Assembly (NCBI RefSeq): GCF_000242915.1
Contig: NZ_AFRZ01000001.1
Span: 372,001-436,000, forward strand
Direction of reading: 5' to 3'
Origin: Sulfurimonas gotlandica GD1
GTDB taxonomy: Bacteria; Campylobacterota; Campylobacteria; Campylobacterales; Sulfurimonadaceae
Length of the DNA: 64,000 bases
Under the pieces are notes generated by a model that was not told where the DNA came from, did not search any database, and saw nothing but the letters and a program-made list of their open reading frames with translations. A program made the position numbers and the translations under genes. Positions 4,489-47,295 of this stretch are shown here, piece by piece (position 1 is the stretch's first letter; each line of letters opens with the position of its first letter).

Positions 4489-5805
4489 CTAAAAATCAAA
4501 TATATCATCTAAATCATCTAGAGATTCATTAGTATTATCATTCATCTTAAGCATTCCGCTTATAGTTTCACAATTTACTACAATGGTATCATTCATAAAA
4601 TCTGCACTTGGAGCACCTCTATGAAAAGACATTTGAATCCATGTTGACATATCATTGCTAAAAGCTTTACACATTGCTCCTAAGTCTGAAGAGTTTTCAA
4701 TAAATTCTTTTGAGTGCTCAGACATATCATATGCTAAAGCTGTAAGTGCTTTTGAAATCACATATACTTCGCCATATGTAGATAAAATAGAGCCTAGTTT
4801 TTCTAAATAACCATATATTGCCACCACTTCATCTTCTGTTATATCACCACTGCCAACTACAAGCATCAACGAAGCAAGTTTTGTTGAATACTCTTCTAAA
4901 TCATAAAGATCATCCCCATCAATATAGTCAAAGACAACTAACTCCTGCGATACATATTCTACTGGAGATGCGATTAAATCATCAACATTTTCTATAACAA
5001 CAGGAGTTACAGCAGGCTTCTTATGTAGTTCTATTTCATCTTTTTCATATACTTTAGAAAGTTCAAAAGATATTTTTGTATTATCAATTTTATATTTACA
5101 TTCAAGTTTGTTTTTCTTTAGAATTAATTCTGCAAGATTTTTAGGTAACTTGTCTATTCTTGTTAGAGTAAAGTATTGATATTTATCTGATTCTTCAATA
5201 TAGATGCCACTTTCAATTGATAGTTTTACTTGTAACTCTGCTATACTAAATATAGTACGAACAACATCACTTAAAGATTCATTTTTCTTAGTTGCACTTA
5301 AAAGGAAAAACTCCCAAAACTCTGATAGTGAATCTTCTGATTTTATGATAAAGTTTGTGTGCCTAGAATATATTTCATTTGTAAATATATTCATAGTTCT
5401 TGTATTTATTTTTTCATGCCCTCTGGCTTCTATTAGAGTGATATAGCTTTCTATTCTACTTGTGAAAATATCTGCATTCACAGGTTTAGAAATATAATCT
5501 TCAGCACCAATATTTAATATCTCTTTTTTTCTGTCACTGTCATCAACCGCAGAAACAGCAATAATCATTACCGATAAGTTAGTTTCTCTAATAATTTTAG
5601 TAGCTTCAATACCATCCATATTTGGCATCATGATGTCCATCAAAATAATATCAAAAGCATTGTCTTTAGACTTTTGTACAGCTTCTAATCCATCACTGGC
5701 TTCATCAATAATAAACTTCGTATTATGATCTTCTCCATAATCTTCAAGAAGAAGTTTTAATATCATACGGTTGTTCACATTATCATCAACTATTAATATT
5801 TTCAT
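4489..5805 (-). CDS. response regulator with large helical C-terminal region
   Basis: About 438 residues. Residues 1-125 are a REC domain with VDD at 6-8, the phospho-acceptor Asp near 57 in LMDIMMPNMDG, and the lysine in YISKPVN. The rest matches no output domain I know: a mixed region (about 130-270), then an acidic helical region ending in DDLDDIFDF. The ATG at 5805 overlaps the ParA stop as TAATG. Being last in the chemosensory operon suggests that it is a phosphorylation target of CheA, possibly working with ParA in positioning. The C-terminal acidic/Phe tail resembles that of the CheZ-like protein of the same operon. Confidence 0.85.
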   Translation of the reverse strand: MKILIVDDNVNNRMILKLLLEDYGEDHNTKFIIDEASDGLEAVQKSKDNAFDIILMDIMMPNMDGIEATKIIRETNLSVMIIAVSAVDDSDRKKEILNIGAEDYISKPVNADIFTSRIESYITLIEARGHEKINTRTMNIFTNEIYSRHTNFIIKSEDSLSEFWEFFLLSATKKNESLSDVVRTIFSIAELQVKLSIESGIYIEESDKYQYFTLTRIDKLPKNLAELILKKNKLECKYKIDNTKISFELSKVYEKDEIELHKKPAVTPVVIENVDDLIASPVEYVSQELVVFDYIDGDDLYDLEEYSTKLASLMLVVGSGDITEDEVVAIYGYLEKLGSILSTYGEVYVISKALTALAYDMSEHSKEFIENSSDLGAMCKAFSNDMSTWIQMSFHRGAPSADFMNDTIVVNCETISGMLKMNDNTNESLDDLDDIFDF

Positions 5806-6548
5806 TACGATATCCTCTCTAGCAACTCTTTTACACACTGATTATAATCTTTCATACCTTTAGATCTTTTCTCGTCTAAGACTATTGGTGATCCAGATTC
5901 AAACTGGCGAGCCAATTTTATATCAACACCTATAGGAGAGAGTAGTTTTTCCGCTCCAAAAGATGTTTTTACCTTATCGAGAGATTCTCTATGCTCATTA
6001 ATATGCGGATTATACATAACTGGCAATATAGACACATCAGCAATTTCACGTCCAAGCAGAGATGCACTCTGGTAAACAGCACGCAACATTTGACCAACAG
6101 CTACTACACCTAAATGGTGTGGCACAAAAGGTATGACAACTGCGTCTGCAACTTCTAAAGAATTCTTTAGCAGTGCATCAAACGTTGGTGGGGTATCTAT
6201 CACACAGTAGTCAAAAAATTCAGCAATACTTTCTCTTTTAAAACGGCTTTTTAACACACCTCTTAAATCTGAATACTCATAAACATCAAAAAAAGCTAGA
6301 GCAGGAGAGAGAGTTAGATTATCGTGGACTGTGGGAATAAAAGTCTCACTGAGAGTATGTCCTGTAAAAATAGAGTGTACTCCAAGATCTTCACTAGGTT
6401 CGCATCCAACACCTATGCATGCATGACCTTGCGTGTCAAAATCCAGAAGTAAAACAGATCCATGTTTTGCTAAAGCACTTGCTATATTTACAGCAGTTGT
6501 TGTTTTAGCAGATCCACCTTTACGATTACTAATTACAATGGTTTTCAC
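5805..6548 (-). CDS. ParA-family ATPase of the chemosensory operon
   Basis: About 247 residues. It has the deviant Walker A RKGGSAKTT near residue 10, Walker A' LLLDFDTQGH near 34 and Walker B CVIDTPPT near 115, which is the ParA/MinD/ParC class. Cytoplasmic chemosensory arrays often encode such an ATPase (for example PpfA or ParC) to segregate or place clusters, and the neighbours fit that role. A TTG at 6557 is possible, but its ribosome site (GAAGGA) would be only one base away. The GTG at 6548 has GAAGGA about 10 bases upstream and is chosen. It overlaps the STAS-like gene by about 20 bases. Confidence 0.88.
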   Translation of the reverse strand: MKTIVISNRKGGSAKTTTAVNIASALAKHGSVLLLDFDTQGHACIGVGCEPSEDLGVHSIFTGHTLSETFIPTVHDNLTLSPALAFFDVYEYSDLRGVLKSRFKRESIAEFFDYCVIDTPPTFDALLKNSLEVADAVVIPFVPHHLGVVAVGQMLRAVYQSASLLGREIADVSILPVMYNPHINEHRESLDKVKTSFGAEKLLSPIGVDIKLARQFESGSPIVLDEKRSKGMKDYNQCVKELLERIS

Positions 6549-6798
6549 TAGTGTCAAATCCTTCTAAAACCTGTTGAAAAAGTTTTTTACTATCTCCAAA
6601 TTCATAAGAGACAGCATAGTTTTTCTTATATGCCATGATAAGTTGTAAAACTGCCAAGTGGACATCTTCACATTCACTGAAGTTAAATATTACTTCATCT
6701 CCAGCACAACCTTGTAAAAAATCTCTAAAAGATACTACTTCATCTTCATAAATCACAGATGCGAATGTAGCTCTATTTTCTTCATATGTTATTGCCAT
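6529..6798 (-). CDS. small STAS-like protein
   Basis: 89 residues with a strand-helix pattern (VIYEDEVVSFRDFLQ, then VIFNFSECEDVHLAVLQLIMAYKK, then YEFGDSKKLFQQVLEGF) that resembles a minimal STAS domain such as those near ParA or in anti-anti-sigma proteins. The match is by fold pattern only and is therefore moderate. It sits between cheW and parA, overlapping parA. An adaptor role within the array is inferred. Confidence 0.7.
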   Translation of the reverse strand: MAITYEENRATFASVIYEDEVVSFRDFLQGCAGDEVIFNFSECEDVHLAVLQLIMAYKKNYAVSYEFGDSKKLFQQVLEGFDTSENHCN

Positions 6799-6819: not shown

Positions 6820-7251
6820 CTAACTTGGTAATTTTAAAGTTTTAATAACATTAATTAAAACACCATCTAAATCTAAAACACCTGAGAGTTCTAAAAACTC
6901 ACTTATATTCTGTTTTTCATCACTATTCATAATCTGTGAATCTTTTACATGCGCTATGTCATCAATAGAGTCCACTTTAATAGCGAAGCGCGCAGAACCA
7001 TTTTCATAAAACAGAAGTTTCAGTGAAGAATCTTCAACACTTTTATTTTCATCTTTGTGTGGAGGAAGCCCTATAATTTTGCGAAAGTTTAAAACTTTTA
7101 TCACACTGCCCTCATAAGAGATCATTCCATCTATTAAATCATGAGCATTTGGTATCTCAGTCAATTTAACTATTTGAATAATTCTCTGTATATTTTCAAT
7201 ATTTAAAGCGTAATGACTACTTCCAACATTAAAAACAATTAAATCAATCAT
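6820..7251 (-). CDS. cheW: CheW-like coupling protein
   Basis: 143 residues, one CheW domain. It has the typical start LIVFNVGSSHYALNIENIQRII, then IPNAHDLIDGMISYEGSVIKVLNFRKIIGLP. CheW links receptors to CheA. The gene follows cheA by 13 bases in the same operon. The N-terminal methionine is preceded by GAGGGTTT, a good ribosome site. Confidence 0.9.
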   Translation of the reverse strand: MIDLIVFNVGSSHYALNIENIQRIIQIVKLTEIPNAHDLIDGMISYEGSVIKVLNFRKIIGLPPHKDENKSVEDSSLKLLFYENGSARFAIKVDSIDDIAHVKDSQIMNSDEKQNISEFLELSGVLDLDGVLINVIKTLKLPS

Positions 7252-7264
7252 ACCTAAACCCTCT

Positions 7265-10033
7265 CTATGCTACAGCAATATATTCTTTTAATTTCTGTGA
7301 AATACCTAAAAGACCAATAGGATCAATAGCCATTATAATCTGCCCATTACCAAGTAGTGCAGTACCACTAAATAGAGGATGCTTTTCCAAGATTCCAACT
7401 AGAGGTTTTTGAACTACATCTAACTGTCCTAAAAACTTATTAACTACGACTGCCAAAAGATTGTTTTTAATATTTAGAACAACGATAGAAAGCGGCTCAT
7501 CTTCCACTACCTTTTCATTTAACATTGATTTAATAAACAGAAGTGGAATCACCTCACCTCTTATGTAAACAAATGGCTCATTATGAAGATATTCAATCTC
7601 AGAACGATAAATTTTAACAGTTTCACTTACACTATCCATTGGAAGTCCATAGTGAATATCGTTCATCTGAATATGAAGAAGAGATGTCACGGCCAAAGAC
7701 ATAGGAATAGATAAAGTAATAAGAGTTCCTTGGTTTGGTTTAGTTTTAATTCCGATACTGCCACCAAATCCCTCTATAGACTTTTTAACAACATCCATTC
7801 CAACGCCACGTCCACTAAACTCTGTTATCTCTTCTGCCGTTGACAAACCTGGAAGTAAAACTAACTCAGCCATTTCATCTTCACTCAGCGCATCTATCTG
7901 CTCAGGAGTCATAAGTCCTTTTTCTAGAACTTTACCAGCTACCCTATCTACATTTATGCCAGCACCATCATCTTGTATCTCAATAATAATTTTATCTGAT
8001 TGTGCAAAAGCCTTAAGTGTAACATTACCACTGGAATTTTTACCTTTTTGCTCTCTGACATCTGGCATTTCTACACCATGATCTAGCGAGTTTCTCATAA
8101 TATGAATCATTGGATCAGCCAGCATCTCAATCATGTTTTTATCTAGCTTTGTCTCCCCACCATACATCTCCAACTTAACTTTTTTACCAAGTTTTTTAGA
8201 GATATCACGAACAAGTTTAGGATATCTGTCAAATACATAGGAGATAGGTAGCATTCTCATGCCCATGATTAAATCTTGAAGTTGCTCAGAGAGACGGTTT
8301 ATGAAAATATACTTATCCATAATCTCTCTTTTTATAGTCTCGTGAGTCATTCCAACAACATTATCAGCTAGGTATGGAAGAGAGTTTTTAGCAACAAGCA
8401 ACTCACCTACGACATTCATTAGACTATCTATAGACTCTTGATCTATCTTAACAGTTTTACCAACTACTGTCTTATGAGTTTCAACTTTTTTACTCTCTAC
8501 TTTTTTTATAGATTCAGAGGCAACAAATTCTTGAGTGAATACTTCTTCTGTATCTTCTACTTCATAATCAATTACAGTTTCTATATCCATTTCTTCTGGT
8601 TCTATTTTTTCTGTAGAACTGCCTACTTGTGATTGTAAAAAAACTTTTATCTCATCTTTTGTTTTAAAATCTTCTGGCATCTCAGGCACAAATTTCCTGA
8701 TTTTATCCATCATCATTTTTACGCGTTGTAAATCATCATCACTCTTAATATAATCAACTGCCAATAACTGTTGCTCTGATATATTTTTAATTGTTTTCAC
8801 TATATCTTCAGTTAATTCTATAGTTTTATTAGATTCAGAAAGTTCTAGCACTTCTGATTCTTCTTCTGAAGCTTGTGCTTCAAGTTCAGCCTCAATCTCT
8901 TCTTCAATATTATCTTCTGTTATTGAAACATCTTCTAGAGCGTCTGTTAATTCAATATTTTCATCTGGTGTATATACTTCACCACGATAAAGGTTATTAA
9001 AAAAACTACAAAGCTTTGTTGTGTCATAATCAGCTATCAAGCCGCTAATATCTATAAATCTTTGAAGTTGCGCATATTGAAGTGTATCATTTCCAACTAA
9101 AGCCATTGAACGTTTTACTTCTTCAACAATTGCTGCTAAGTCTAAATCTTCAGCTATATTATTTAGCTCTTTTAACGAGTCTATCTTGTGTCCGCTCTCT
9201 CCGACATTGATAGAAAGAAGGGTTGATATATCTAAAGGTAAAAATTGAAGTTCATCTATAAAGTTAAATAGTGCATCTTCAATCTCTTCAAAAGTAGCTT
9301 TTATAAATGCTGTTAGTTGAACTCTCAGCAGTAAACCATCTTCATCTTCTGTACCGCTTAGTACTGATTTTGCATTATCATCACTCATACAAGAGTAAAC
9401 ACCAAGAACTTTATCACCCAAAAGAGATAGTGTGTAAATTGGATCATTTCCATAAACCATACATGATTCATCTATATCAAAGACAACTGCATAAAAGTTT
9501 TCATTTGCGCAAAACTCTTCATCAAGGTCTGTATTTTTAAAAGCTATTGTTTGTGATGAACATTCACGCAGAGTATTTAAAGGCATATTAACTACTGATG
9601 CAGCATCTTCAACTAGTAAAAAACCTACTTCCCAACTAGCTACTGCCTCAGCATCTTTACCCATCTGCTCACTCAGTGATGTAATGATTTTTTTAAGTGT
9701 ATCTTCATCAGCTTCTACTATGCCTTGTGTCTCTTCAGCAGCTTCAATTAAGTTAAGAACTTCATCAAAAGCGTCAAAAAGTGCTTCTGTCATACCATCA
9801 GCAAACGCTATTCTACCGTCTCTAAGCATGTCCAGCAAATCTTCAGCATGGTGGGTTATATCTCTTACACTATCAAACCCAACTATGCCGCTACCACCTT
9901 TTAAAGTGTGAGCTGCTCGAAATACTGAATTTAAAAGTTCAGGATCAGCACCACCAATATCTTCAATATTTTGCTCTATAAATGCTAAGTTTTCTCTAGC
10001 TTCGTTTAAAAACTGTTCTAATAATGGATCCAT
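7265..10033 (-). CDS. cheA: chemotaxis histidine kinase CheA
   Basis: 922 residues. An N-terminal Hpt (P1) domain carries AAHTLKGGSG with the phospho-His at about residue 42. There follows a long acidic middle (about 130-530), then P3 dimerisation with KIDQESIDSLMNVVGELLVAKN near 545, the HATPase core with RNSLDHGVE, DDGAGI and FSGRGVGMDVV, and a C-terminal CheW-like (P5) domain. There is no receiver domain. At 922 residues it is longer than the usual 650-750, because of the linker, which may include a degenerate extra Hpt or P2-like domain. A GGAGG ribosome site lies upstream of the ATG. It should phosphorylate the operon's CheY, CheB and the large regulator. Confidence 0.97.
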   Translation of the reverse strand: MDPLLEQFLNEARENLAFIEQNIEDIGGADPELLNSVFRAAHTLKGGSGIVGFDSVRDITHHAEDLLDMLRDGRIAFADGMTEALFDAFDEVLNLIEAAEETQGIVEADEDTLKKIITSLSEQMGKDAEAVASWEVGFLLVEDAASVVNMPLNTLRECSSQTIAFKNTDLDEEFCANENFYAVVFDIDESCMVYGNDPIYTLSLLGDKVLGVYSCMSDDNAKSVLSGTEDEDGLLLRVQLTAFIKATFEEIEDALFNFIDELQFLPLDISTLLSINVGESGHKIDSLKELNNIAEDLDLAAIVEEVKRSMALVGNDTLQYAQLQRFIDISGLIADYDTTKLCSFFNNLYRGEVYTPDENIELTDALEDVSITEDNIEEEIEAELEAQASEEESEVLELSESNKTIELTEDIVKTIKNISEQQLLAVDYIKSDDDLQRVKMMMDKIRKFVPEMPEDFKTKDEIKVFLQSQVGSSTEKIEPEEMDIETVIDYEVEDTEEVFTQEFVASESIKKVESKKVETHKTVVGKTVKIDQESIDSLMNVVGELLVAKNSLPYLADNVVGMTHETIKREIMDKYIFINRLSEQLQDLIMGMRMLPISYVFDRYPKLVRDISKKLGKKVKLEMYGGETKLDKNMIEMLADPMIHIMRNSLDHGVEMPDVREQKGKNSSGNVTLKAFAQSDKIIIEIQDDGAGINVDRVAGKVLEKGLMTPEQIDALSEDEMAELVLLPGLSTAEEITEFSGRGVGMDVVKKSIEGFGGSIGIKTKPNQGTLITLSIPMSLAVTSLLHIQMNDIHYGLPMDSVSETVKIYRSEIEYLHNEPFVYIRGEVIPLLFIKSMLNEKVVEDEPLSIVVLNIKNNLLAVVVNKFLGQLDVVQKPLVGILEKHPLFSGTALLGNGQIIMAIDPIGLLGISQKLKEYIAVA

Positions 10034-10043
10034 AACTTCCTCC

Positions 10044-10409
10044 CTAACTCTTAACTAAAATATCTATATATGCCTGAAGCAGATCAGGTTTGATTGGCTT
10101 TGTTTCAAATAGATTTGCACCAACTTTATAAGCGGAAATTTTATCTTCTAGTTTTGCCTGAGTTGTAACCATAATCACCGGAACATTTTTATGATTAGGT
10201 TGCTTACGCAAATCACTTATAAAAGAGTAGCCATCCATTATGGGCATATTAACATCTACTAAATACAGATCTATCTTTGCATCTAGACTCTTCTCTAATG
10301 CTTCCATACCATTTTCTGCTTCTATAATATCAAGTCCTTGAGACTTAATAATAGCTCCATGATAATTTCTTACTGTTTTTGAATCATCCACGACCATAAT
10401 AGTTGGCAT
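10044..10409 (-). CDS. CheY-like single-domain response regulator
   Basis: 121 residues, REC domain only. The acidic pair is DD at 8-9, the acceptor Asp is near 52 (YLVDVNMPIMDG), a Thr is in VMVTTQ and the conserved Lys is in ETKPIKP. It is the second CheY of the operon, between the CheZ-like gene and cheA. Which of the two acts on the motor cannot be told from sequence. Confidence 0.92.
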   Translation of the reverse strand: MPTIMVVDDSKTVRNYHGAIIKSQGLDIIEAENGMEALEKSLDAKIDLYLVDVNMPIMDGYSFISDLRKQPNHKNVPVIMVTTQAKLEDKISAYKVGANLFETKPIKPDLLQAYIDILVKS

Positions 10410-10417
10410 AATATCTC

Positions 10418-10810
10418 CTAAAAAAATTCTATCTCATCAGTTTCATCTTCATGGCCAAGTTTACCAGAAAATGCATCTCGTCTATCTTGTGCAATTTGCA
10501 GAGTTTTTGATAGTTTAACATGTAGTTTTTCAATACTCTCACTTGCTATCTTCTCATCTGAATCATAGGCATTTTCAAAAACATCTATAGCTATTTGAAC
10601 ACTGTCTATAGCCTCAATAGTTGCACTTAACTGCTGAGAAATAATATCTTGATACTGCAATCCTTTTGCAGCACTTTCATCTAACTCTATAGAGTTTTTC
10701 TCAATAAATGCACTAAGCATTAGCATAGAGTCTTGAGACATCTGTATAGTCTCCTCTTCAACCCTCTTTATATGCGAAAGCAGTTCATTTATTGAAGATA
10801 ACATATTCAT
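10418..10810 (-). CDS. candidate CheZ-like phosphatase or CheY partner
   Basis: About 130 residues, almost all helical. The stretch GLQYQDIISQQL near residue 52 resembles the CheZ active-site helix, in which Gln in an FQDLTGQ-type motif is catalytic. The tail DETDEIEFF resembles the acidic, Phe-ended peptide by which CheZ holds CheY. Its position between two cheY genes supports a CheY-related role. A GTG at 10822 overlaps the previous stop, but the ATG at 10810 has TGGAG at good spacing and is chosen. Without a structural comparison the call stays tentative. Confidence 0.7.
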   Translation of the reverse strand: MNMLSSINELLSHIKRVEEETIQMSQDSMLMLSAFIEKNSIELDESAAKGLQYQDIISQQLSATIEAIDSVQIAIDVFENAYDSDEKIASESIEKLHVKLSKTLQIAQDRRDAFSGKLGHEDETDEIEFF

Positions 10811-10821
10811 ATTTTTCTCCA

Positions 10822-11193
10822 CTACGCTAATCTTAATACTCTTGTTATAGCCTGTTTTAACTGTGCTGGGTTAAATGGTTTTACAATCCATCCAGTAAGT
10901 CCTAAAGCTTTGCCTTTTTGTTTGAGTTCTGCTTTTGTCTCCGTTGTTAACATAAGACATGGTGTTCTGCTAGTTGAAGGAACTTTTCTTAAAGCTTCCA
11001 AGAACTCAAACCCATTCATTACAGGCATGTTAAGGTCTGTAATAATCAAATCAGGTGTCATACCTGCCTGAATTTCTGCTAGAGCAACTTGTGCTTCTGT
11101 ATATTGCTTAACTTCTATTGGCATAGAGTTCGTCACCATTCTCGTTGACGCTAAAGCTGTCTCACTATCATCTACAAATATTACTAATGGCAT
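10822..11193 (-). CDS. CheY-like single-domain response regulator
   Basis: 123 residues, REC only. It has VDDSETA at 8-14, acceptor Asp near 53 (IITDLNMPVMNG), Thr in LMLTTET and Lys in WIVKPFNPAQL. This pattern (LTTE, GWIVKPF) is typical of motor- or array-associated CheY proteins. It has a strong GGAGAAAAAA ribosome site. It lies downstream of cheR and upstream of the CheZ-like gene, whose GTG overlaps its stop. Confidence 0.93.
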   Translation of the reverse strand: MPLVIFVDDSETALASTRMVTNSMPIEVKQYTEAQVALAEIQAGMTPDLIITDLNMPVMNGFEFLEALRKVPSTSRTPCLMLTTETKAELKQKGKALGLTGWIVKPFNPAQLKQAITRVLRLA

Positions 11194-11202
11194 TTTTTTC
11201 TC

Positions 11203-12036
11203 CTATTTTTGATAAACTAAAGTATTGTCTATTTTTTTAGCCGTAAAAACAGACACTATCCTACTCATATACTCAGCATGTCCTAAAAGAACATAACCAC
11301 CTGGGTTTAGCATGTCATAAAATGTCATTGCTACCTCTTTTCTAGATGCATCATCAAAATAAATGAGCATATTTCTTGAAAAAATCACATCAAACTTTCC
11401 AAGATTTCTCATCTGAACCTTATCAAATACATTTGCAACTTGAAAATCAACACTACCTTGTAAATCTTCTCCAAGCTCATAACCTAAACTTTTTTTATTA
11501 AACCATTTAGATAAAATACCTTTTGGAATAGCGTGAACAGATCGTTCTGTATATTTGGCTTTTTTAGCTTTTTCTATAACAGTTGAGTCAATATCAATAC
11601 CAACTATCTCAATATCTCTCTCCTCTATAACCTTGCCTTCTTCAACAATATGAAGCACCATAGAATACGGCTCTTCGCCAGTAGAACATGGTGACGATAA
11701 GATTCTAAGAGTTTTAGAAGCCGGTAGAGTCTTGTGAAGCTCTGGTAGAATTTTATTTACTAAAGCTTCAAACTGATCTTTTTCTCTATAAAAATATGTC
11801 TCATTTACTGTAACTCCATTCATCAACGCTTGAAACTCTTCTCCATCTTTATCTTCAAAACGAAGTTTAAAGAAGTACTTTCGAAAACTATCCAGCTCTA
11901 AAGTAGAAGCACGAGAATCTATATACTTAGCAAGCTTTTCATAATGCTTTTCTTCTTCCAAGTAGATGCCACTTTTTCTATAGACAAACTCACTCATCTT
12001 TAAAAAATTCTCTTTAGATAAAAGATATGCCATCAT
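11203..12036 (-). CDS. cheR: MCP glutamate methyltransferase CheR
   Basis: 277 residues. It has the N-terminal helical CheR domain (NETYFYREKDQF near 87) and the SAM-binding domain with SSPCSTGEEPYS near 120, IVGIDIDSTVIEKA and DVIFSRNMLIYFD near 222. It methylates receptor glutamates in adaptation and pairs with the operon's cheB. Two adjacent ATGs are possible; the first overlaps the HEAT gene stop as TAATG. Confidence 0.95.
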   Translation of the reverse strand: MMAYLLSKENFLKMSEFVYRKSGIYLEEEKHYEKLAKYIDSRASTLELDSFRKYFFKLRFEDKDGEEFQALMNGVTVNETYFYREKDQFEALVNKILPELHKTLPASKTLRILSSPCSTGEEPYSMVLHIVEEGKVIEERDIEIVGIDIDSTVIEKAKKAKYTERSVHAIPKGILSKWFNKKSLGYELGEDLQGSVDFQVANVFDKVQMRNLGKFDVIFSRNMLIYFDDASRKEVAMTFYDMLNPGGYVLLGHAEYMSRIVSVFTAKKIDNTLVYQK

Positions 12037-12659
12037 TATCCCTTAATCATCTTTATTGCGCCATCAACTGCAAACTCAACATAAAATTCACCGTTAAACC
12101 TCGACTTTAAAGATTCTAAGAGTTCTATATCTTCTTCTTCTCCTATCTCACCCATATAATCTACTGCTGTCATTGCAACGTTTATATCTTCTTCATCTTC
12201 TAAAAGTTCAACCAACATATCTCTAGACTCTGCAAAATCTACATCACCTAAAACATTAATAGCAAAGATTCTCAAATCCCTGTCATCACCTATAAGAAAT
12301 TTAACTATATAATATTTAATAGCATCTCCAAAATCCCTAAGTATAGATATCCCTAAATTTCTCACATAGGCATTATCAACTTTTAATAGTTCCATAATAG
12401 CTTCTATCGGCGCGATTTCAGGGTCCATGTTTGATATGGCAGCAGCTATCTTAGTTAAAGAATTCTTGTCTAGATTCTCTCTTTTGATGCAAGAAACAAG
12501 ATAATCTCCCGCTCCATCAAACTTCGCGATCTCCTCTATGGCATAATCTCTGTTATCTTGATTTTCACTTGATTCAAAATACGCTACTGCTTCTTCAAGA
12601 GTTGAGAATGTTTGTAAATCTTCAATATCTTGCTTTACATGGTTTTTAATCAAAGCCAT
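12036..12659 (-). CDS. HEAT-repeat protein of the chemosensory operon
   Basis: 207 residues, all helical, acidic, with HEAT-like repeats such as AYVRNLGISILRDFGD, RDLRIFAINVLGDVD and INVAMTAVDYMGEIGEE, and no signal peptide or catalytic motif. HEAT proteins are protein-binding scaffolds. Its place between cheB and cheR suggests an adaptor for the methylation enzymes or the array; this is inference only. Confidence 0.85.
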   Translation of the reverse strand: MALIKNHVKQDIEDLQTFSTLEEAVAYFESSENQDNRDYAIEEIAKFDGAGDYLVSCIKRENLDKNSLTKIAAAISNMDPEIAPIEAIMELLKVDNAYVRNLGISILRDFGDAIKYYIVKFLIGDDRDLRIFAINVLGDVDFAESRDMLVELLEDEEDINVAMTAVDYMGEIGEEEDIELLESLKSRFNGEFYVEFAVDGAIKMIKG

Positions 12660-12672
12660 AAGTTTATCCCCT

Positions 12673-13728
12673 TTACTTTAGTGTAACTATCTTTTTCAAA
12701 ATATTTGGAAAATCCAACTGCTCAGACACACCACCACGTTCATATGCTTCTTTTGGCATTCCATAGACTGTAGCACTCTCTTCACTCTCACCTAGAGTAT
12801 ATGCACCGGCTTTCTTTAGCTCAACCATTGCATCTGCACCGTCATCACCAATCCCAGTTAGAATAACGCCTATTATATCAGGGCCATTAAAAACGCTTAG
12901 TGCACTATGCATCATATCATTAGCACTTGGTTGAAAAAAGTTATTACCCTTATTTTCATCTTCTCTTATGACTACTTTTCCTGATGTTTTTTTAGAAAAA
13001 TTCATGTGAACTCCACCACGAGCCACATAAACATTTCCAGGTAATAACTCCATATTATGAGCACTCTCTATAACATTTAAAACACAAGAACGATCAAGTC
13101 TTGCTGCGAATGTCTTTGTGAATTGCTCTGGCATGTGTTGAACAATACAGACAGGGTGCTTGAAGTTTTGCGGTAAAGAAGAACAAATTTGTTCTATTAG
13201 CCCAGGTCCACCAGTTGAAGACCCTATTAGAACTACCTTTTGGATATCTCTAGAGTCTGTTGTCTGCTCAAGCTTTTTTGCTACTACTTTTCTCTCTCTT
13301 TGAGCAGGTCTTGATAACTGTCTTTGAAGTCTTCTTTTTGGTATTCGGCTAAGAGATTTGACTTTTTGTAAAATTTCTTCACGGTTTTCAATTTTTCCGA
13401 CATTCATAGTTCCAGGTTTTGGAATATAATCTATGGCACCTAAGTCAAGTGCATCCATTGTTATACTGGCATTTTCTGTAGTTAAAGAACTAACCATTAG
13501 TATCGCTGATGGTTGTTTTTTCATTATTTGTCTTACTGCTTCTAATCCATCCATAACTGGCATATTTATATCCATAGTAATTACATCATATTGAGTTTTA
13601 GTCGCCTTATCTACAGCCTCTTGTCCATTTTTGGCAATATCAATCTCATATTCTAATGTTGATATTATCTCGGTTAATTGTTTTCTAACAAGCGCAGAGT
13701 CATCAACTATCAGTACTTTTTTTGCCAC
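12673..13728 (-). CDS. cheB: CheB: receiver plus MCP methylesterase
   Basis: 351 residues. Residues 1-125 are a REC domain with DD at 9-10 and acceptor Asp near 53 (TMDINMPVMDG). A basic linker follows. The methylesterase domain has the catalytic Ser in IGSSTGGPG near 168, His in VQHMPEQF near 195 and Asp in TGIGDDGADAM near 292. Phosphorylation by CheA should activate receptor demethylation or deamidation. It is complete, unlike the stand-alone second CheB at 44691. Confidence 0.97.
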   Translation of the reverse strand: MAKKVLIVDDSALVRKQLTEIISTLEYEIDIAKNGQEAVDKATKTQYDVITMDINMPVMDGLEAVRQIMKKQPSAILMVSSLTTENASITMDALDLGAIDYIPKPGTMNVGKIENREEILQKVKSLSRIPKRRLQRQLSRPAQRERKVVAKKLEQTTDSRDIQKVVLIGSSTGGPGLIEQICSSLPQNFKHPVCIVQHMPEQFTKTFAARLDRSCVLNVIESAHNMELLPGNVYVARGGVHMNFSKKTSGKVVIREDENKGNNFFQPSANDMMHSALSVFNGPDIIGVILTGIGDDGADAMVELKKAGAYTLGESEESATVYGMPKEAYERGGVSEQLDFPNILKKIVTLK

Positions 13729-13736
13729 TATTTCTC

Positions 13737-15095
13737 CTAATTTGAAACTATCTTTTGTATATCCATAGATAGTATTAATCTCTTCCCACCATCTAAATGA
13801 AGAACATTACTAAAAAGCTCATCATCATGAGTTCTTAATTCATCTATCTTGATATCCATAATATCACTAATACTATCAACTATAAAACCTATTTTAGAAT
13901 CGTTAATTTCACAAACTATGATTTTTGAATCTTCATTTATTTTTGTCTCAATTGACAACTTTTTAAATAGAGAGACAATAGTAACAATCTGCCCTCTAAT
14001 ATTAATAACACCATCTACACTATCATCGCTGTATGCAACTTTGGTTGAATCAACAATATCAATTATTTCTGCTACAAACTCAACATTAAAAGCGTATTCT
14101 TTATCTGCAAGCTTGAAAACTATAACTTCGAGTGCTGTTAAAGAGCTATCTTCAGCCTTAATTTTGTTTTTTTCTTTAGAGTCAATATATCTACTGTTTT
14201 TAGAAAAAATCTCTTCCAACACTTCTTTATTAAAAAAAGATATTAAAGAGTTATTATCATGAATAACACCAGATATTTTATTATCTTCAAAACTATCCCT
14301 CATGTATTCGATATCCCTATCAGGAAAACTTTTTATATCTATAATATCATCAACTAGAAGTCCAATTGTTTCATCACCACATGAAGTTATTAAAATGCGA
14401 TTTTTCTCATTCTTATCACTGTTAAACCCATAATAAGAACGCAGGTCTATTACTGCAATAAGCTCTTCTCTTAAAGTAATAAGACCCAGTAGATCTTTAG
14501 AACTTCCAGCTATATCTGTATAATTTACATCTGAGAGTATTATCTCTCTTAAATAGTCTATATTTAAAGCAAACCTCTCATTTGACATTGCAAAAATCAA
14601 AAATTTTGTAGAGTTTTCTTCTTTAGTGTCAAAAAGTTTTACTTTTCCACTATGCACTTCTTTGGATTTTATTTCAACTTTAGAAATATTAGAGATTAGA
14701 GTTTCCAAAGATATGATTTGAACTAAATAGTCTTTGTACTTATATATAGCTATTATAGGATCATTAGCATTATCTATATACTCAATATTAGCTTCTTCTA
14801 TATCTACAGTATTGTAAACTTCACTAACTAGGAGTGCATTTGATGAAAGATCACCGTTAAGACTTAAAAGCCTACTATTTTGAGCTTTTAAATCTACTTC
14901 TGGCAGGTCTAATAAGAGATTAACGTCAACTATGCTTACTATATTTCCACCTACACCACAAAGTCCTCTAGTACCGTATGGTCTTAAAGGTAGGTCCATA
15001 AGTAATGGAACTCTAGAAATCTGATTTATATCTTCAGTTGAAATACCATAATTCTCTTGAGAATTTTTAATAATTAGAATCTCTTGGATCTGCAT
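13737..15095 (-). CDS. triple CheW-domain protein
   Basis: 452 residues that divide into three CheW-like units of about 140-150 residues. Each starts with a strand and shows a G(V/L)I.L/R(E/G) pattern: GLCGVGGNIVSIVDVNLLLDLP near 45, LLGLITLREELIAVIDLRSYYG near 205 and VDGVINIRGQIVTIVSLFKKL near 365. No kinase or receiver domain is present. CheW repeats of this kind could bridge several receptors or kinases. It lies between the two-tip MCP and cheB, so it is probably the main scaffold of this array. It is probably an internal triplication that has diverged greatly. Confidence 0.85.
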   Translation of the reverse strand: MQIQEILIIKNSQENYGISTEDINQISRVPLLMDLPLRPYGTRGLCGVGGNIVSIVDVNLLLDLPEVDLKAQNSRLLSLNGDLSSNALLVSEVYNTVDIEEANIEYIDNANDPIIAIYKYKDYLVQIISLETLISNISKVEIKSKEVHSGKVKLFDTKEENSTKFLIFAMSNERFALNIDYLREIILSDVNYTDIAGSSKDLLGLITLREELIAVIDLRSYYGFNSDKNEKNRILITSCGDETIGLLVDDIIDIKSFPDRDIEYMRDSFEDNKISGVIHDNNSLISFFNKEVLEEIFSKNSRYIDSKEKNKIKAEDSSLTALEVIVFKLADKEYAFNVEFVAEIIDIVDSTKVAYSDDSVDGVINIRGQIVTIVSLFKKLSIETKINEDSKIIVCEINDSKIGFIVDSISDIMDIKIDELRTHDDELFSNVLHLDGGKRLILSMDIQKIVSN

Positions 15096-15101
15096 CTTAA
15101 G

Positions 15102-17000
15102 TTACCCCTGTTGAAGCTCATCCGCCATTACAGCCAACTCTTCTACACCTTCACCTATGTGTGAAACTGTCTCAATTATCAGTTCACTTGCTTTACGAGA
15201 TTCCATAGCATTTCTAGCACTAAGTTCTACTGCTTTTTGAATCTCACTAATACCAATAACAACCTGATTCATACCTTCTAAGTTTTGATCATTTATAGCT
15301 TTTAGACCAGTATATCTATCTAGCAGATCTACAAGCATATCTGTAATCTTAACAATATCATTAATTAATATATCAATAAGAGATTGCTCATTACCTTGAG
15401 ATGCTAAAAGATTATTCCAATCTGTTCTTACAGTATCTATCTCAGAGTTCATTGATTCTACGATATCATTAATCTTATCTGTATTTGACTCTGAGTCCTT
15501 TGCTAAGTTTCTAATATCTGAACTAACAACTGCAAAACCTTTTCCAAAGTCACCAGCACGTGCTGCTTCTATTGAACCGCTAATTGCAAGCATGTTTAAC
15601 TGAACAATAGAATTTGAAATATTTCCAACTGTTTTATCAACATTTCTTGTATCTTTTACGATTACACTCAGTTCAGCAGCTGCGCTGTTTCCCTGACTTA
15701 TAGAGTCACTAAATGCACCTCTAATCTCGCTCACGGTATTTTTAACACTATTAAAAGATACTTTTAATAAATCAAAATTTCTTCTTGCAATTTCAATTAA
15801 TTTATCAATATCTTTAGCCGCATCTATACCTGCTTCAATCAGTTCTTTATTTCTGAGAGCACTTTTATTTGTAGTATGTGAAGATGATTCTATCTGGTTT
15901 AGTGCAGTAGTTACATCTTCAAGAGCATTTTGAATATCTTCCATTGAACCGCCAATTGTATCGGCACTCATTGCAATATCTTCAGCTGATTTCATTGTGT
16001 CAGTAGAATACTTTAACTCTTCTGCTAAATTTGAAAGTTCTTTGATGTCATCTTCTGTTTGAGCAAGAGCTTCTGATTGAATATCTATACCGTTTAGAGT
16101 CTTTTCTACAGATAGAGCAATTTCACTAGAAGCTGTTGCTATCTCTTGTGAGCCATCATTGATTTTAGCCACAAAGTCACCAAGTCTTTGAGTGTAAGTG
16201 TTTACACTTCTAGCAGCTTCAACAGAGTAGACAGCTATCTTTGTCAGCTCTTCCATTTTTGCACTAAGCATATTGCCTTTAGAGCCATTGTCCGAGATAG
16301 TTGTAGTTGTTTTACCAATACTCTGAATTATATTATCTATACTTCCTTGGATTTTTGTAACAAGTTCTGAAATAAACTCAGCATTCTTTTCACTCTCACC
16401 AGCTAACGCACGAGTCTCATCAGCAACAACTGCAAAACCTTTACCATGCTCTTTAGCACGAGATGCTTCAATAGCAGCATTTAGTGCAAGAAGGTTTGTT
16501 TGATCTGCAATTTTTGCAATAAATCCAACAGCATCTCCAATATTTTGAGATGATATTTTCAACTCTTCACTCTTAGTTGATGATTCTTGAGCCACTTGAA
16601 CAGCTCTTGCCATTCGTCCGACAGAATCATTAACTTTTCCTACAGATGCCATAATATTTTCACCTGTAGATAGTGTAGATGAAATTACAGTATTAATTGT
16701 TAAGTTCATTCTGCTGATATTAGTATCTATAGCTTTAACATTTGCTAGTGCTTGCTCACTTGCACCACTATTTTCTTCAGCAGCAGTAGCAATCTGTTCC
16801 ATAGAAGATTTCAACTCTTCAATAGCACTTACGCTCTCTTGTGCATTTTCTAAAATAGTCATGGACACACCAGCTATGCTCTCACTGATTTGTTGTTGTT
16901 TAGCTAGAGTTCTTTGTCGTCTTTTATCTCCACCGCCGACACCTTGTGCTACTACTGCAGCTGAAGATGAATCTGAAGTGTGTTTTCTCATTAATGCCAT
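15102..17000 (-). CDS. cytoplasmic MCP with two signalling tips
   Basis: 632 residues, without a signal peptide, transmembrane segment or sensor domain, so it is a soluble receptor. Two MCP hairpin-tip segments occur in tandem: the first near 164-200 ([19 protein letters not shown]) and the second near 465-500 ([20 protein letters not shown]), each within long coiled coils. Tip 1 is close to canonical; tip 2 is divergent, with ISGS in place of LNAA. The gene is preceded by a separate PAS gene, so sensing may come from that partner, as in Campylobacter CetA/CetB, although CetA has a membrane anchor. The N-terminus is short and rich in Ser, Gly and Arg. Confidence 0.9.
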
Positions 17001-17018: not shown

Positions 17019-17447
17019 CTAATCTAGAGTTGCGTAAAGCACTTCTGCTTTTTTAATTTCTTCACGAGATGGTTTAACTCGGATAGAAACATATTTAGTT
17101 TTTCCATTTTTATCTACTGATCGAAGAACTGTTGCATATACCCAATAGTATCCGCCGCCTTTTCTTGCATTCTTTACATAGCCTGTCCAAAAACCTTTAG
17201 ATTGAACATCATCCCAAAGAGATTTAAAAGCAGCTCTTGGCATATCTTGATGACGAACTACATTATGAGGCTGACCAATCAACTCATCTCTGTGTAAATT
17301 TGCTATCTTTAAAAAAGAGTCACTAGCATATTCAACTATACCCTTTTCATCTGTTTCACTTAAAAGATATAAATCGTTATATAAAACTTCACCATCTTCT
17401 AAAAATGTTAGACCATCTGTGCTTACTTCACTGTTGTTTTTTGACAC
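17019..17447 (-). CDS. stand-alone PAS sensor, CetB/Aer-like
   Basis: 142 residues, one PAS domain at about 20-125. The pattern IGQPHNVVRHQDMPRAAF followed by LWDDVQSKGFWTGYVKN and GGGYYWVYATV is that of the Aer-type FAD PAS and of Campylobacter CetB. No output domain or membrane segment is present. It probably senses redox state and signals to the soluble MCP encoded 19 bases downstream. The start is GTG with GGGAGG upstream. As first gene of the chemosensory operon it probably sets expression of the rest. FAD binding is inferred. Confidence 0.9.
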   Translation of the reverse strand: MSKNNSEVSTDGLTFLEDGEVLYNDLYLLSETDEKGIVEYASDSFLKIANLHRDELIGQPHNVVRHQDMPRAAFKSLWDDVQSKGFWTGYVKNARKGGGYYWVYATVLRSVDKNGKTKYVSIRVKPSREEIKKAEVLYATLD

Positions 17448-43908: not shown

Positions 43909-44691
43909 TTACAACTGATCTGCATGTCCAAAAAATATCTCTTGATGGGAATTTTTTCTCATACTCTCTAAAATATTCTTTGCTTTTATCTTTGTTGGAG
44001 CATCAAAATATATAAACATATTTCTTGAGAAGATAAAATCAAATTTACCAAGATTTAAAAATGACGGATCAAACAGATTTGCAAGTTCAAAAGTCACAAG
44101 AGATTTTACACTGTTTTTTAGAGCATATTGCTCACCGTGCTTATCAAAGTATTTGTCGAGTATCTCAGCAGACAAATTTCTTATATTTCTCTCTTTATAG
44201 ATAGCCTCTCCTGCTCTGTCTAATGCATCTGAGTTAATATCTATACCTACAATTTTAAACTTACTAGGAATTACTCCAGCTTCAAGCAGTGCTATTGCTA
44301 TACTATATGGTTCTTCACCTGTAGCAGACGGAGCACACAAAATATCTACATTTCCCACGCAAGCTTTTACAAGTTCTACAAGTTGGGCTACCTGTCTAAA
44401 TTCTCTGTAAAAAAACGTTTCATTAGTTGTTAAGTAGTCAATAAGTTCCTGCTTTATCTTAGCATCTGAATCAACAATCGACAGTAGTTTTTCAAATGAG
44501 ATAATCTCTCTTTGCCTACAAAAGGTCATTACTTTATTTGTTAAAATGTTTATCTGCTTATCAAAAGTAACGCCAGTTTCATTTTTAAAATACTCAGCTA
44601 TTTTTGTAACATCACTATAGTCTGTAAGCTCTACAACTTTAACTTCCTCTTTTTCAACAATCGGTTTTTTTTTCTTAAAAAAACTAAACAT
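43909..44691 (-). CDS. second CheR methyltransferase
   Basis: About 260 residues. It has TTNETFFYREFRQVAQL near 98, CAPSATGEEPYSIA near 127, IVGIDINSDALDRAG and FDFIFSRNMFIYFD near 226. A short basic N-terminus (FFKKKKP) precedes the helical domain. The ATG overlaps the CheB stop as TAATG. It forms a trio with CheB and MCP, and is distinct from the CheR at 11203. Confidence 0.92.
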   Translation of the reverse strand: MFSFFKKKKPIVEKEEVKVVELTDYSDVTKIAEYFKNETGVTFDKQINILTNKVMTFCRQREIISFEKLLSIVDSDAKIKQELIDYLTTNETFFYREFRQVAQLVELVKACVGNVDILCAPSATGEEPYSIAIALLEAGVIPSKFKIVGIDINSDALDRAGEAIYKERNIRNLSAEILDKYFDKHGEQYALKNSVKSLVTFELANLFDPSFLNLGKFDFIFSRNMFIYFDAPTKIKAKNILESMRKNSHQEIFFGHADQL

Positions 44692-45287
44692 TATGTGCAA
44701 AACTCCTTTATTGATTCTACTATCTCACTTATATCTAATACTTTAATATTTTGTACTTCTTTTCTTGCACGACTTGGCATCCCATCAACTATAGCACTAC
44801 CCTCACTCTCCGTAATACAAGAAGAGCCATTTAGCCCAAGTGTTTTACAAGCCTCTACCCCATCATGGCCTATTCCAGTCAAAATCACACTAAGAATCTC
44901 TACCTCTTTAGCAAACACAACAAAAGAATTAAACAGAATATTAATATCTGGATTAAAAGCATTTACGGGAGAGTCTTTTTTAGAAAAGATAAATCCTGAA
45001 GAGTTTTTACTAACAGTAGTTGCTCCGCAACATACATACACATTTGCATTTTCTAAATAGGTATTATCCTGTGCAACTGAGATTGGATTCAAATGATTTT
45101 CTTGTAGTCGTTTAGCAAAGCTGGCCATAAAACCTACTACCATATGCTGAGCAATTACTATACTAGTGTTTTTTAGCTCAGGAAGAGCATTTATGATTTT
45201 TTCAATCTGTCCCGGCCCTCCTGTAGAGGCACCGATTAGGACGATTTTACTAGGTATTGAATGTTTCAAGTTTTGCATGTAACTCAT
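44691..45287 (-). CDS. stand-alone CheB methylesterase domain
   Basis: 198 residues without a receiver domain. The catalytic Ser is in IGASTGGPG near 19, His in IAQHMVVGF near 47 and Asp in [10 protein letters not shown] near 142. Without a receiver it cannot be switched by phosphorylation in the usual way. The start overlaps the MCP gene by 38 bases; an ATG 9 bases further in is also possible. A weak ribosome site suggests coupling. Confidence 0.9.
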
Positions 45288-47295
45288 CTGTCATAGAGTT
45301 TAAGTGATCAGCTGCAGCAGCTATCTCTTCTACGTTACGAGCATTTACTAAAGAGATATCATTAATCTGTGTTATTTGATTAACTATAGACTCAACATCG
45401 TTTCCAGTTTTTTCAAAATCAGTTACAGTTCTATCACTAGCACTTACTGCTTCATCAACTATTTGAACACTGATATTGATTTTTTCTTCAACTTTGATAG
45501 CCATATCTGATAACTTCTGAATATCTTCAGAATTACTGCTCATCTGACCGCTTACATCTCCTATTGACTGAACTATTACGTTGATTGTAGCATTAATCTC
45601 TGTTAGAGATTTTTGTGTTCTCTCTGCTAGTTTTCTAACCTCATCAGCAACAACAGCAAAACCGCGACCATGTTCACCTGCGCGTGCAGCTTCAATAGCA
45701 GCATTTAGTGCAAGTAAATTTGTCTGCTCGGCAATATCAGAGATAACTTCAAGAACAACTTTAACTTCATTGGCGTCATGAGAAAGAGCATTCATTCTCT
45801 CTGCAAGTTCTACTTCAAGCTCTGCACTTCTTTGCACTTGTGCTGTTAGAGATATTACATCATCACGGGCTTCATTAAGATTCTGATTTGCTTTGATGAT
45901 ATCTTCTTTACTCTCTTGCGCATCTGTTATAGCATTATTAATTTCATTTTTAATATGTATTGCTTTTTGTGTAGCTGCTTCAACAACAGATACAGACTTT
46001 TCAACATTTTCTCCAACACCTAAAGCTGTAGTAGATAGCTCATGAGATATTGAAGCATTTTCCGAAGAGCTCTGTTTTGAAGTATCAATCAACTCTTTAA
46101 GAGAAGTCATCAGTCCATTAAAACTTATCGCAATTTGTGAAAGCTCTAGTGGTGCATTTTCATCTACCTTAAGAGTTAAGTTTTTATTATCACCTATGGT
46201 TAAAAGGGTCTCTTTAAACTTATTAATTGGTTTGATAATACTAGCATTTACTGCAATTATAGAGATTGATATCATAATAAGAAGAATAATCACCGACCAC
46301 ATTATGATACTGTTTCTAATGCTGTTTGGTACTATAAGAACTTCTGCTTCATCAATCTCTGAGATAATAGCCCATTTAAAATCTTCACCTATATGTATAG
46401 TTGAAAATGAAGATAAAACAGGATTACCATTGTAATCAATTACTATCTTAGTCTCTGTACTCCCTGCTAGTGCTTCACGAGAAGCTTCAGTATCAACAGA
46501 ACCAGTTGAAGGGTTTGCAAATGAAGCTTTTAGTGAGTGCCCTGTTGGGTCTAGAAAACTATCACTTCTCATAAGCTTATCTGGACCAACTAGATAATCC
46601 TCTTGAGAATCACCATAGCCACCTCTATACTGCATAATCTTATTTATTGAAGAATCACTGATTTGAAATACTAAAACAGCTTTTATTTCTCCACCAACTT
46701 TTACAGGAGTTGATAAGAACATTGCCGGAGCACCATTACTTGGTGCATATGGTTTCATATCCACAAATGTAGGACTATTATTTTTAACAGCTAGTCTATA
46801 TGCCTCACCCAATCCACTATTTTTCAATGAACCGTGAGTAAGGTTGGCGCCATAATCAGACTCTTTCGCAGCCGTATACATTACATGCCCATGTTCTGCA
46901 CCAATTATAAAAATATCGTAGTAGCCATACTCTTTCATATACTCTTGAAAAAAGACCTCATGTTTTTCTTTTTTTTCTTTTGCCAACGGATTATGTACTG
47001 GATAATCTTCAGTAGCCCCAACTTCTAATTCATTGTAAACATCTCTTAAATCAGTAACCATTGAATAAAGATTCTGAGAATGGGAAAGAACATTTATATC
47101 ACCTATTCTCTCTGCGAAAAAGCTTTCTATCTGATTTTTCTTCATATCTCTTACAGTCGTCAACTGAGAGTAGCTATTTTTCATCAAAGCATCTTTACTT
47201 TTAGTAACAGATATATCAGTTGTAATGAAAGCTAATATTATTAGCGATAACGCTGTCGATAAGATAATTTGCATTCTTATTGATAGTCTATTCAT
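45250..47295 (-). CDS. membrane chemoreceptor with Cache sensor (MCP)
   Basis: 681 residues. TM1 is near 8-28, a dCache-like periplasmic sensor fills about 30-325 ([21 protein letters not shown], then [19 protein letters not shown]), TM2 is near 327-347, then HAMP. The signalling tip is [20 protein letters not shown] near 540. It is a single-tip, classic transmembrane MCP. The ligand is unknown. The position among nitrate genes suggests nitrate, nitrite or related redox signals, but this is inference. It lies first in an mcp-cheB-cheR transcript. Confidence 0.93.

Follow-up and report, generated by a model that had tools for sequence, protein, structure and literature searches.

The gene cluster and its receptor

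The 64,000-nucleotide stretch of the Sulfurimonas gotlandica GD1 genome analyzed here (the window) contains a chemosensory gene cluster on the minus strand, in which a dosM-like gene (15102..17000), beginning with ATG, encodes a soluble chemoreceptor of 632 aa with two signaling tips. MCPsignal is the only Pfam domain of this product above cut-off (171.6 bits; two distinct stretches reach E ≤ 0.001), and no HAMP match was found; a six-frame search of the genome likewise assigns this frame two separate MCPsignal matches above cut-off (103.0 and 66.4 bits). A hydropathy scan detected no stretch reaching the threshold for a membrane helix. Pfam matches to spectrin, WXG100 and other coiled-coil families were weak, fell below cut-off and were set aside.

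The first tip (residues 161-195; 16416..16520, minus strand) is canonical in sequence, and the second (residues 461-495; 15516..15620, minus strand) bears a GS signature; their tip glutamates, E178 and E478, lie exactly 300 residues apart. The first-pass annotation had described two tip segments about 300 residues apart in one chain with no membrane helix, and had proposed a domain search; the two MCPsignal matches and the hydropathy agree with it, and the two-tip observation on this frame is confirmed. Furthermore, when tip 2 was searched alone as a 103-aa piece, 13 distinct solved sequences were matched (E 1.7e-11 to 2.2e-9), all of them named chemoreceptors, and in the three alignments printed the turn is crossed without gaps.

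Directly downstream of dosM lies the gene for CheW3 (13737..15095), a chain of 452 aa in which three CheW domains are recovered as three separate matches within one frame. The genes that follow, also on the minus strand, encode proteins recognized by profile matches: CheB with a receiver domain (12673..13728), a HEAT-repeat protein (12036..12659), CheR (11203..12036), two CheY-like single receivers (10822..11193 and 10044..10409), CheA of 922 aa with Hpt, dimerization, ATPase and CheW-like domains (7265..10033), and a single-domain CheW (6820..7251). Between the two receivers is a 134-aa protein of no recognized family (10418..10822, minus strand), with no match above cut-off, for which tblastn found a match in 41 of the 45 Campylobacterota loci holding both CheR and a CheA of the window type; it contains a stretch, LQYQDIISQQL, that we take to resemble a CheZ-type phosphatase motif. 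The cluster ends with a ParA/MipZ-type ATPase (5805..6557, minus strand), and a 449-aa receiver-domain protein (4489..5838, minus strand) overlaps the end of parA; both were likewise assigned by profile match.

A DosM with tandem signaling domains, together with a triple CheW, is the signature of the F9 class, and 98% of DosM homologues carry no sensory domain (PMC9321776). The window holds a full F9 set, with cheA, cheY, cheB and cheR alongside dosM and the triple CheW, and the window protein was placed in the DosM family because of its triple-CheW neighbor and the F9-type cluster. On these grounds of sequence and gene content it is identified as DosM, the double-signaling-domain receptor of an F9-class system. 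A two-tip receptor is uncommon, as the first-pass annotation had held in calling it unusual, but the kind is already known. Its original description is reportedly that of Briegel et al. in 2016.

The cluster also occurs on plasmids. A CheW3-like match is present in 28 plasmid records, of which 10 were fetched; eight of these have DosM, and a two-tip receptor is absent from the two further stretches. The order dosM-cheW3-cheB-HEAT-cheR-cheY-cheA is common to six of the eight clusters, so that the HEAT gene occupies the same place as in the window, and parA also stands beside two of the plasmid clusters. The clusters of A. vitis and Rhizobium plasmids have neither the HEAT gene nor a CheY between cheR and cheA. 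Of 120 genomes of the genus, 44 have DosM (E ≤ 1e-60) and 44 have CheW3, with 43 having both.

The S. gotlandica GD1 genome (2,952,682 bases, a single contig) holds 26 receptor genes by MCPsignal, and its CheW-like matches include three frames of CheA length (929, 803 and 697 aa). Elsewhere in the window (43909-47295, minus strand), a membrane chemoreceptor gene is followed by genes for a 198-aa CheB methylesterase with no receiver match and for a CheR; an auxiliary CheB lacking the receiver is a marker of the F3 class (PMC9321776).

Two tips that differ by rule

The comparison of tips covers 64 complete two-tip frames, namely the window, 55 Campylobacterota loci and 8 plasmid loci (63 are distinct, L075 and L076 being identical). 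The frames were chosen by a tip-shaped motif, a procedure by which relatives with a decayed tip would be missed, and three broken or cut ones (L083, L084, L085) were excluded. A count of homologues with the same layout had been suggested in the first-pass annotation. The closest named relatives by DosM are Sulfurimonas isolates, with identity up to 95%. Two dosM copies, that of L083 and that of one surveyed genome (G107:C25), are each divided between two reading frames, which may reflect a broken gene or a sequencing error.

Tip 1 reads ALNAA in all 64 frames, and tip 2 reads AISGS in 56, AVNGS in four and AVSGS in four; a GS tip is absent from the 25 other chemoreceptors of the S. gotlandica GD1 genome. 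The distance from tip to tip is 300 residues in every one of the 64, with 0 gap columns between the tips. The same spacing of 300 is found in two divergent clusters with CheA (L116, L117) and in a further close cluster that may duplicate one of the 64 (L126). In seven genomes, nine divergent DosM copies whose fetched stretches show no CheA have spacings of 300 (L108), 299 (five copies), 295, 294 and 293, and their tip 2 is NGS or NGA; these spacings count as one observation, because the stretches are short and the copies may belong to a single lineage. One of them, L108, comes from a genome of the same genus (G022) and holds a DosM 32% identical to that of the window together with CheW3, CheB and CheR, no CheA being seen in the stretch, a set that resembles the published partial F9 sets.

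In an alignment of 19 representatives, mean entropy in the three 10-residue blocks surrounding tip 2 is 0.41, 0.29 and 0.42 bits, and in the matching blocks of tip 1 it is 0.0, 0.5 and 0.15 bits; values in the arms are mostly 1 to 2.3 bits and fall as low as 0.5 in a few conserved blocks. Tip 2 is conserved nearly as well as tip 1 and is therefore under constraint. Likewise, the invariant spacing in the 64 frames, together with the absence of a GS tip from the other 25 receptors, argues against chance. The first-pass annotation had correctly read ISGS in place of LNAA at tip 2, but its description of this as divergence does not hold, as all 64 relatives examined carry the GS signature: to judge from these alignments, the residues of tip 2 represent no decay, and the two tips differ by rule.

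The PAS gene upstream of dosM

Directly upstream of dosM, a short gene (17019..17447, minus strand) encodes a 142-aa PAS-only protein of Aer/CetB-like type, whose best solved match is the PAS domain of Escherichia coli Aer (8dik, E 9.9e-28). The residues of Aer that contact FAD include T27, H53, R57, M69, W70, N85 and R115 (PMC9668731). Among the contacts checked in the window protein, H53, R57, W70, N85 and R115 are identical and M69 is replaced by Leu. The positions were mapped through the 8dik alignment, with an assumed Aer numbering. In the orthologues, W70, N85 and R115 have identical equivalents in 56 of 56, H53 and R57 in 55 of 56 (one copy does not cover them), and Leu stands for M69 in all 56. 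To judge by this match, the gene product is an Aer-type PAS-only protein with putative FAD-contact residues.

The PAS gene immediately precedes dosM in 56 of the 58 Campylobacterota loci of Sulfurimonas type, the two misses (L078, L085) being contig ends; the gap between the two genes, taken by alignment and with the stop codon included, is 7-25 bases in 54 of the 56 and 85-86 in the other two. The PAS type (E ≤ 1e-58) occurs in 41 of the 120 genomes of the genus, all 41 within the 44 that have DosM; the three DosM genomes without it are G001 and G119, with dosM at a contig edge, and G022, with its divergent DosM. A survey of 397 genomes across the phylum gave DosM in 16 (E ≤ 1e-45, the best three candidates per genome being scored) and the PAS type in eight, each of which has a DosM that is 76% identical or more. 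Moreover, PAS and dosM stay paired in two loci (L043, L050) where the remaining cluster is rearranged, with HEAT-cheR-cheY-cheY-cheA-cheW-cheW-parA upstream of PAS-dosM-cheW3-cheB. No PAS gene adjoins dosM in the eight plasmid loci or in the divergent Campylobacterota copies. Sections 6 and 8 and further passages of PMC9321776 make no mention of the PAS-dosM pair or of the GS signature.

What these counts point to is an association between PAS and DosM, not contact, because linkage alone can produce the co-occurrence of neighbors. The strongest competing explanation bears on the PAS protein, which could be an operon passenger serving other chemoreceptors, with the DosM arrays fed by separate soluble receptors. 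We give this explanation close to an even chance. PAS-containing soluble receptors have indeed been suggested as the partners in Vibrio cholerae (PMC7534058), and the PAS query has 38 further matches in the S. gotlandica GD1 genome, where at least two PAS-only genes adjoin membrane receptors; the plasmid clusters and divergent Campylobacterota relatives, where dosM has no PAS gene beside it, point in the same direction. Weighed against it are the near-constant pairing in the 56 of 58 loci, the presence of DosM in 41 of 41 genus genomes with the PAS type, and the integrity of the pair in the two rearranged loci. As DosM carries no sensor, the upstream PAS protein would be the best candidate input here, and a flavin PAS as the likeliest source of the signal of the DosM array in the Sulfurimonas lineage is a reading that we advance tentatively, at somewhat less than even confidence, from sequence comparison.

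Two of the other PAS-only proteins of the genome, which share about 58-60% identity with the protein linked to dosM, were inspected in their context. One (L111, G000:C1:2142000-2148500) adjoins a 372-aa membrane receptor, like CetB/CetA, and the other (L110, G000:C1:1181000-1186000) has no receptor in the stretch fetched. A different candidate, a 296-aa protein (G000:C1:1131613-1132500) and the genome's only bare soluble single-tip receptor, was rejected as a general partner of DosM: it occurs in 10 of the 120 genomes, seven of them with DosM. The four other soluble single-tip receptors of the genome carry a CZB domain.

A different neighbor in other families

In two other Campylobacterota families (L116 from G248, L117 from G486), dosM is followed by a gene for a protein of 260-264 aa (5838-6629 in L116, 11032-11811 in L117) and not by that for the triple CheW. 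The start of these proteins matches the first half of CheW and is followed by a match to the CZB zinc-binding domain, above cut-off in L116 (36.2 bits) and under it in L117 (22.8 bits), and a further weak stretch is all that is recovered of the later part of CheW; the two proteins share 40% identity over 250 residues. It appears from these matches that CZB is inserted inside the CheW fold, and CZB and PAS are among the domains known to be fused to CheW (PMC10653840). Judged by the signature of DosM plus CheW3, these clusters are not F9. Their CheW-CZB protein is a candidate for a second kind of sensor beside a sensor-less DosM.

Structure models and the reading of tip 2

AlphaFold2 was run on single chains, with shallow alignments whose rows are 73-96% identical to the window DosM. 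The full-length model (30 rows; pLDDT 86.6, pTM 0.58) has helices at 25-181, 187-331 and 335-631, that is, a hairpin at tip 1, a helix break at 332-334 close to the midpoint between the tips (328), and no break at tip 2. The second half modeled alone (50 rows; pLDDT 90, pTM 0.48) is one straight helix. In the full-length model, the half that carries tip 1 extends over 307 residues (25-331), which a simple count converts to about 44 heptads (44H is the DosM heptad type); a comparison of heptad register between the DosM arms and the 25 single-tip receptors, in which partners of the same length were sought, gave no clear optimum. A structure search with the full-length model returned eight matches at E ≤ 0.001, the first four being chemoreceptor models or structures and the others long helical proteins, and therefore adds nothing for tip 2.

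The models thus weigh against a reading with two hairpins, and a hairpin at tip 2 is putative. The first-pass annotation had named a model with one hairpin as evidence against its reading, and AlphaFold2 gave exactly that. We rank the models below the sequence evidence because each is a single-chain prediction on a shallow alignment (pTM 0.58 and 0.48), and receptors of this type work as dimers.

A second explanation follows the models more closely: tip 1 alone would signal, and the second half would be an anchoring coiled coil, tip-like in sequence but binding neither CheA nor CheW. Besides the missing turn, the replacement of the LNAA core by GS fits this view. So does the exact methylation consensus, which all 64 frames have in the half of tip 1 but only 13 of 64 in the half of tip 2 (that of the window lacks it), but this argument is weak, the control being poor: just two of the 25 single-tip receptors of the genome match, and the consensus was rejected as a marker of an adapting half, so that nothing here rests on it. 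An anchor is hard to reconcile with a tip 2 nearly as conserved as tip 1 in the 19 representatives, with the 13 solved chemoreceptor sequences that match it, and with the V. cholerae DosM, reported as a rod with a signaling domain at each end (PMC7534058). We regard it as improbable.

That DosM instead folds back at its midpoint, bringing both tips side by side into one baseplate, is very improbable, as the break at 332-334 near position 328 that would favor it is set against the extended rod, with one signaling domain per end, of the V. cholerae relative (PMC7534058), and against the N-terminal helix (from 25) and the C-terminal helix (to 631), each of which reaches 153 residues from its own tip, so that in a rod they would meet midway.

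Proposed mechanism

The explanation that we prefer is that of a DosM of the F9 class acting as a two-ended rod, which would pin two CheA/CheW3 lattices together at a distance set by a fixed ruler, with the upstream PAS protein as the likeliest input; taken as a whole, we hold it to be very probable, but the PAS step alone to be somewhat less than an even chance. Each half of the protein would fold into a long hairpin of helices, about 150 residues per arm, and the halves, joined back to back, would form a dimeric rod with a signaling tip at each end and the chain ends near the middle. Tip 1 and tip 2 would each plug into a CheA/CheW3 lattice, giving a flat, membrane-free sandwich of the sort reported in V. 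cholerae, whose thickness the constant 300 residues would measure out. The suggestion of the first-pass annotation that two tips could bind two CheA/CheW units or span between arrays gains support here, the V. cholerae DosM being integrated into both baseplates (PMC7534058). Having no sensor of its own, the rod would have to receive its signal from elsewhere, and the flavin PAS may sense the redox or energy state through FAD, as Aer does, and report it to the array.

Several points speak against this explanation. At the textbook rise, 300 residues of straight helix correspond to about 45 nm from tip to tip. The published height of the F9 array of V. cholerae is 35 nm (PMC7534058), short of such an estimate. 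Tip 2 is a straight helix in both AlphaFold2 models, the genome survey yielded no partner receptor for DosM, and dosM outside the Sulfurimonas lineage has no adjoining PAS gene. Furthermore, CetA, the partner of CetB, has membrane helices and a HAMP domain and DosM has neither; the docking of a PAS protein on DosM would therefore need another site.

Going one step further, DosM could be conceived as a blind, two-ended scaffold that borrows sensors encoded by its neighbors, lineage by lineage. In Sulfurimonas, a CetB-like flavoprotein would dock onto the HAMP-less rod, probably near its middle, and a redox event would reach two opposing CheA lattices through the chemically different LNAA and GS tips; in the two other Campylobacterota families, the CheW-CZB adaptor itself would sense. 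We put this forward as a speculative extension, possible but rather doubtful as a whole.

Significance

Deletion of the F9 CheA of V. cholerae gave no detectable phenotype under standard conditions, and the partner receptors of this system are only suggested (PMC7534058). The conserved PAS-dosM pair would offer one concrete and testable input for F9 arrays, namely redox, in environmental bacteria, and the 300-residue spacing with its unlike tips leads to measurable predictions on the thickness of the array and the equivalence of its two layers. The mechanism of DosM is already known; what is added here is the constant GS signature of tip 2, the fixed spacing of 300 residues and the lineage-specific PAS neighbor.

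Comparison with known systems

The closest parallel is the F9 system of V. cholerae (cluster I), whose DosM (VC1403) is an extended rod with a signaling domain at each end and seems to be indispensable for a cytoplasmic array of two layers (PMC7534058). As in the window, the cluster includes CheA and places a soluble receptor with two signaling domains next to a triple CheW, the two DosM proteins being likened through the published description and gene context. Two genes set the window cluster apart from that of V. cholerae, an Aer-type PAS gene preceding dosM and a single-domain CheW gene following cheA.

Within the phylum, the F9 sets named in sections 6 and 8 and further passages of PMC9321776 are only the partial ones of Nitratiruptor and Nautilia, in which the cluster lacks cheA and cheY. 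They share with the window dosM, cheW3 and cheB/cheR, but the window cluster holds both cheA and cheY. The nine divergent DosM copies, with tips 293-300 residues apart, look like these partial sets.

For the PAS gene, the resemblance is to the bipartite energy-taxis receptors CetA/CetB of Campylobacter jejuni and Magnetospirillum, where a PAS-only sensor gene likewise adjoins a receptor with no sensor domain; CetB2 of Magnetospirillum senses redox via FAD (PMC12442639). CetA, however, has membrane helices, accompanied in C. jejuni by HAMP (PMC2628428), and DosM has neither of them, but two tips.
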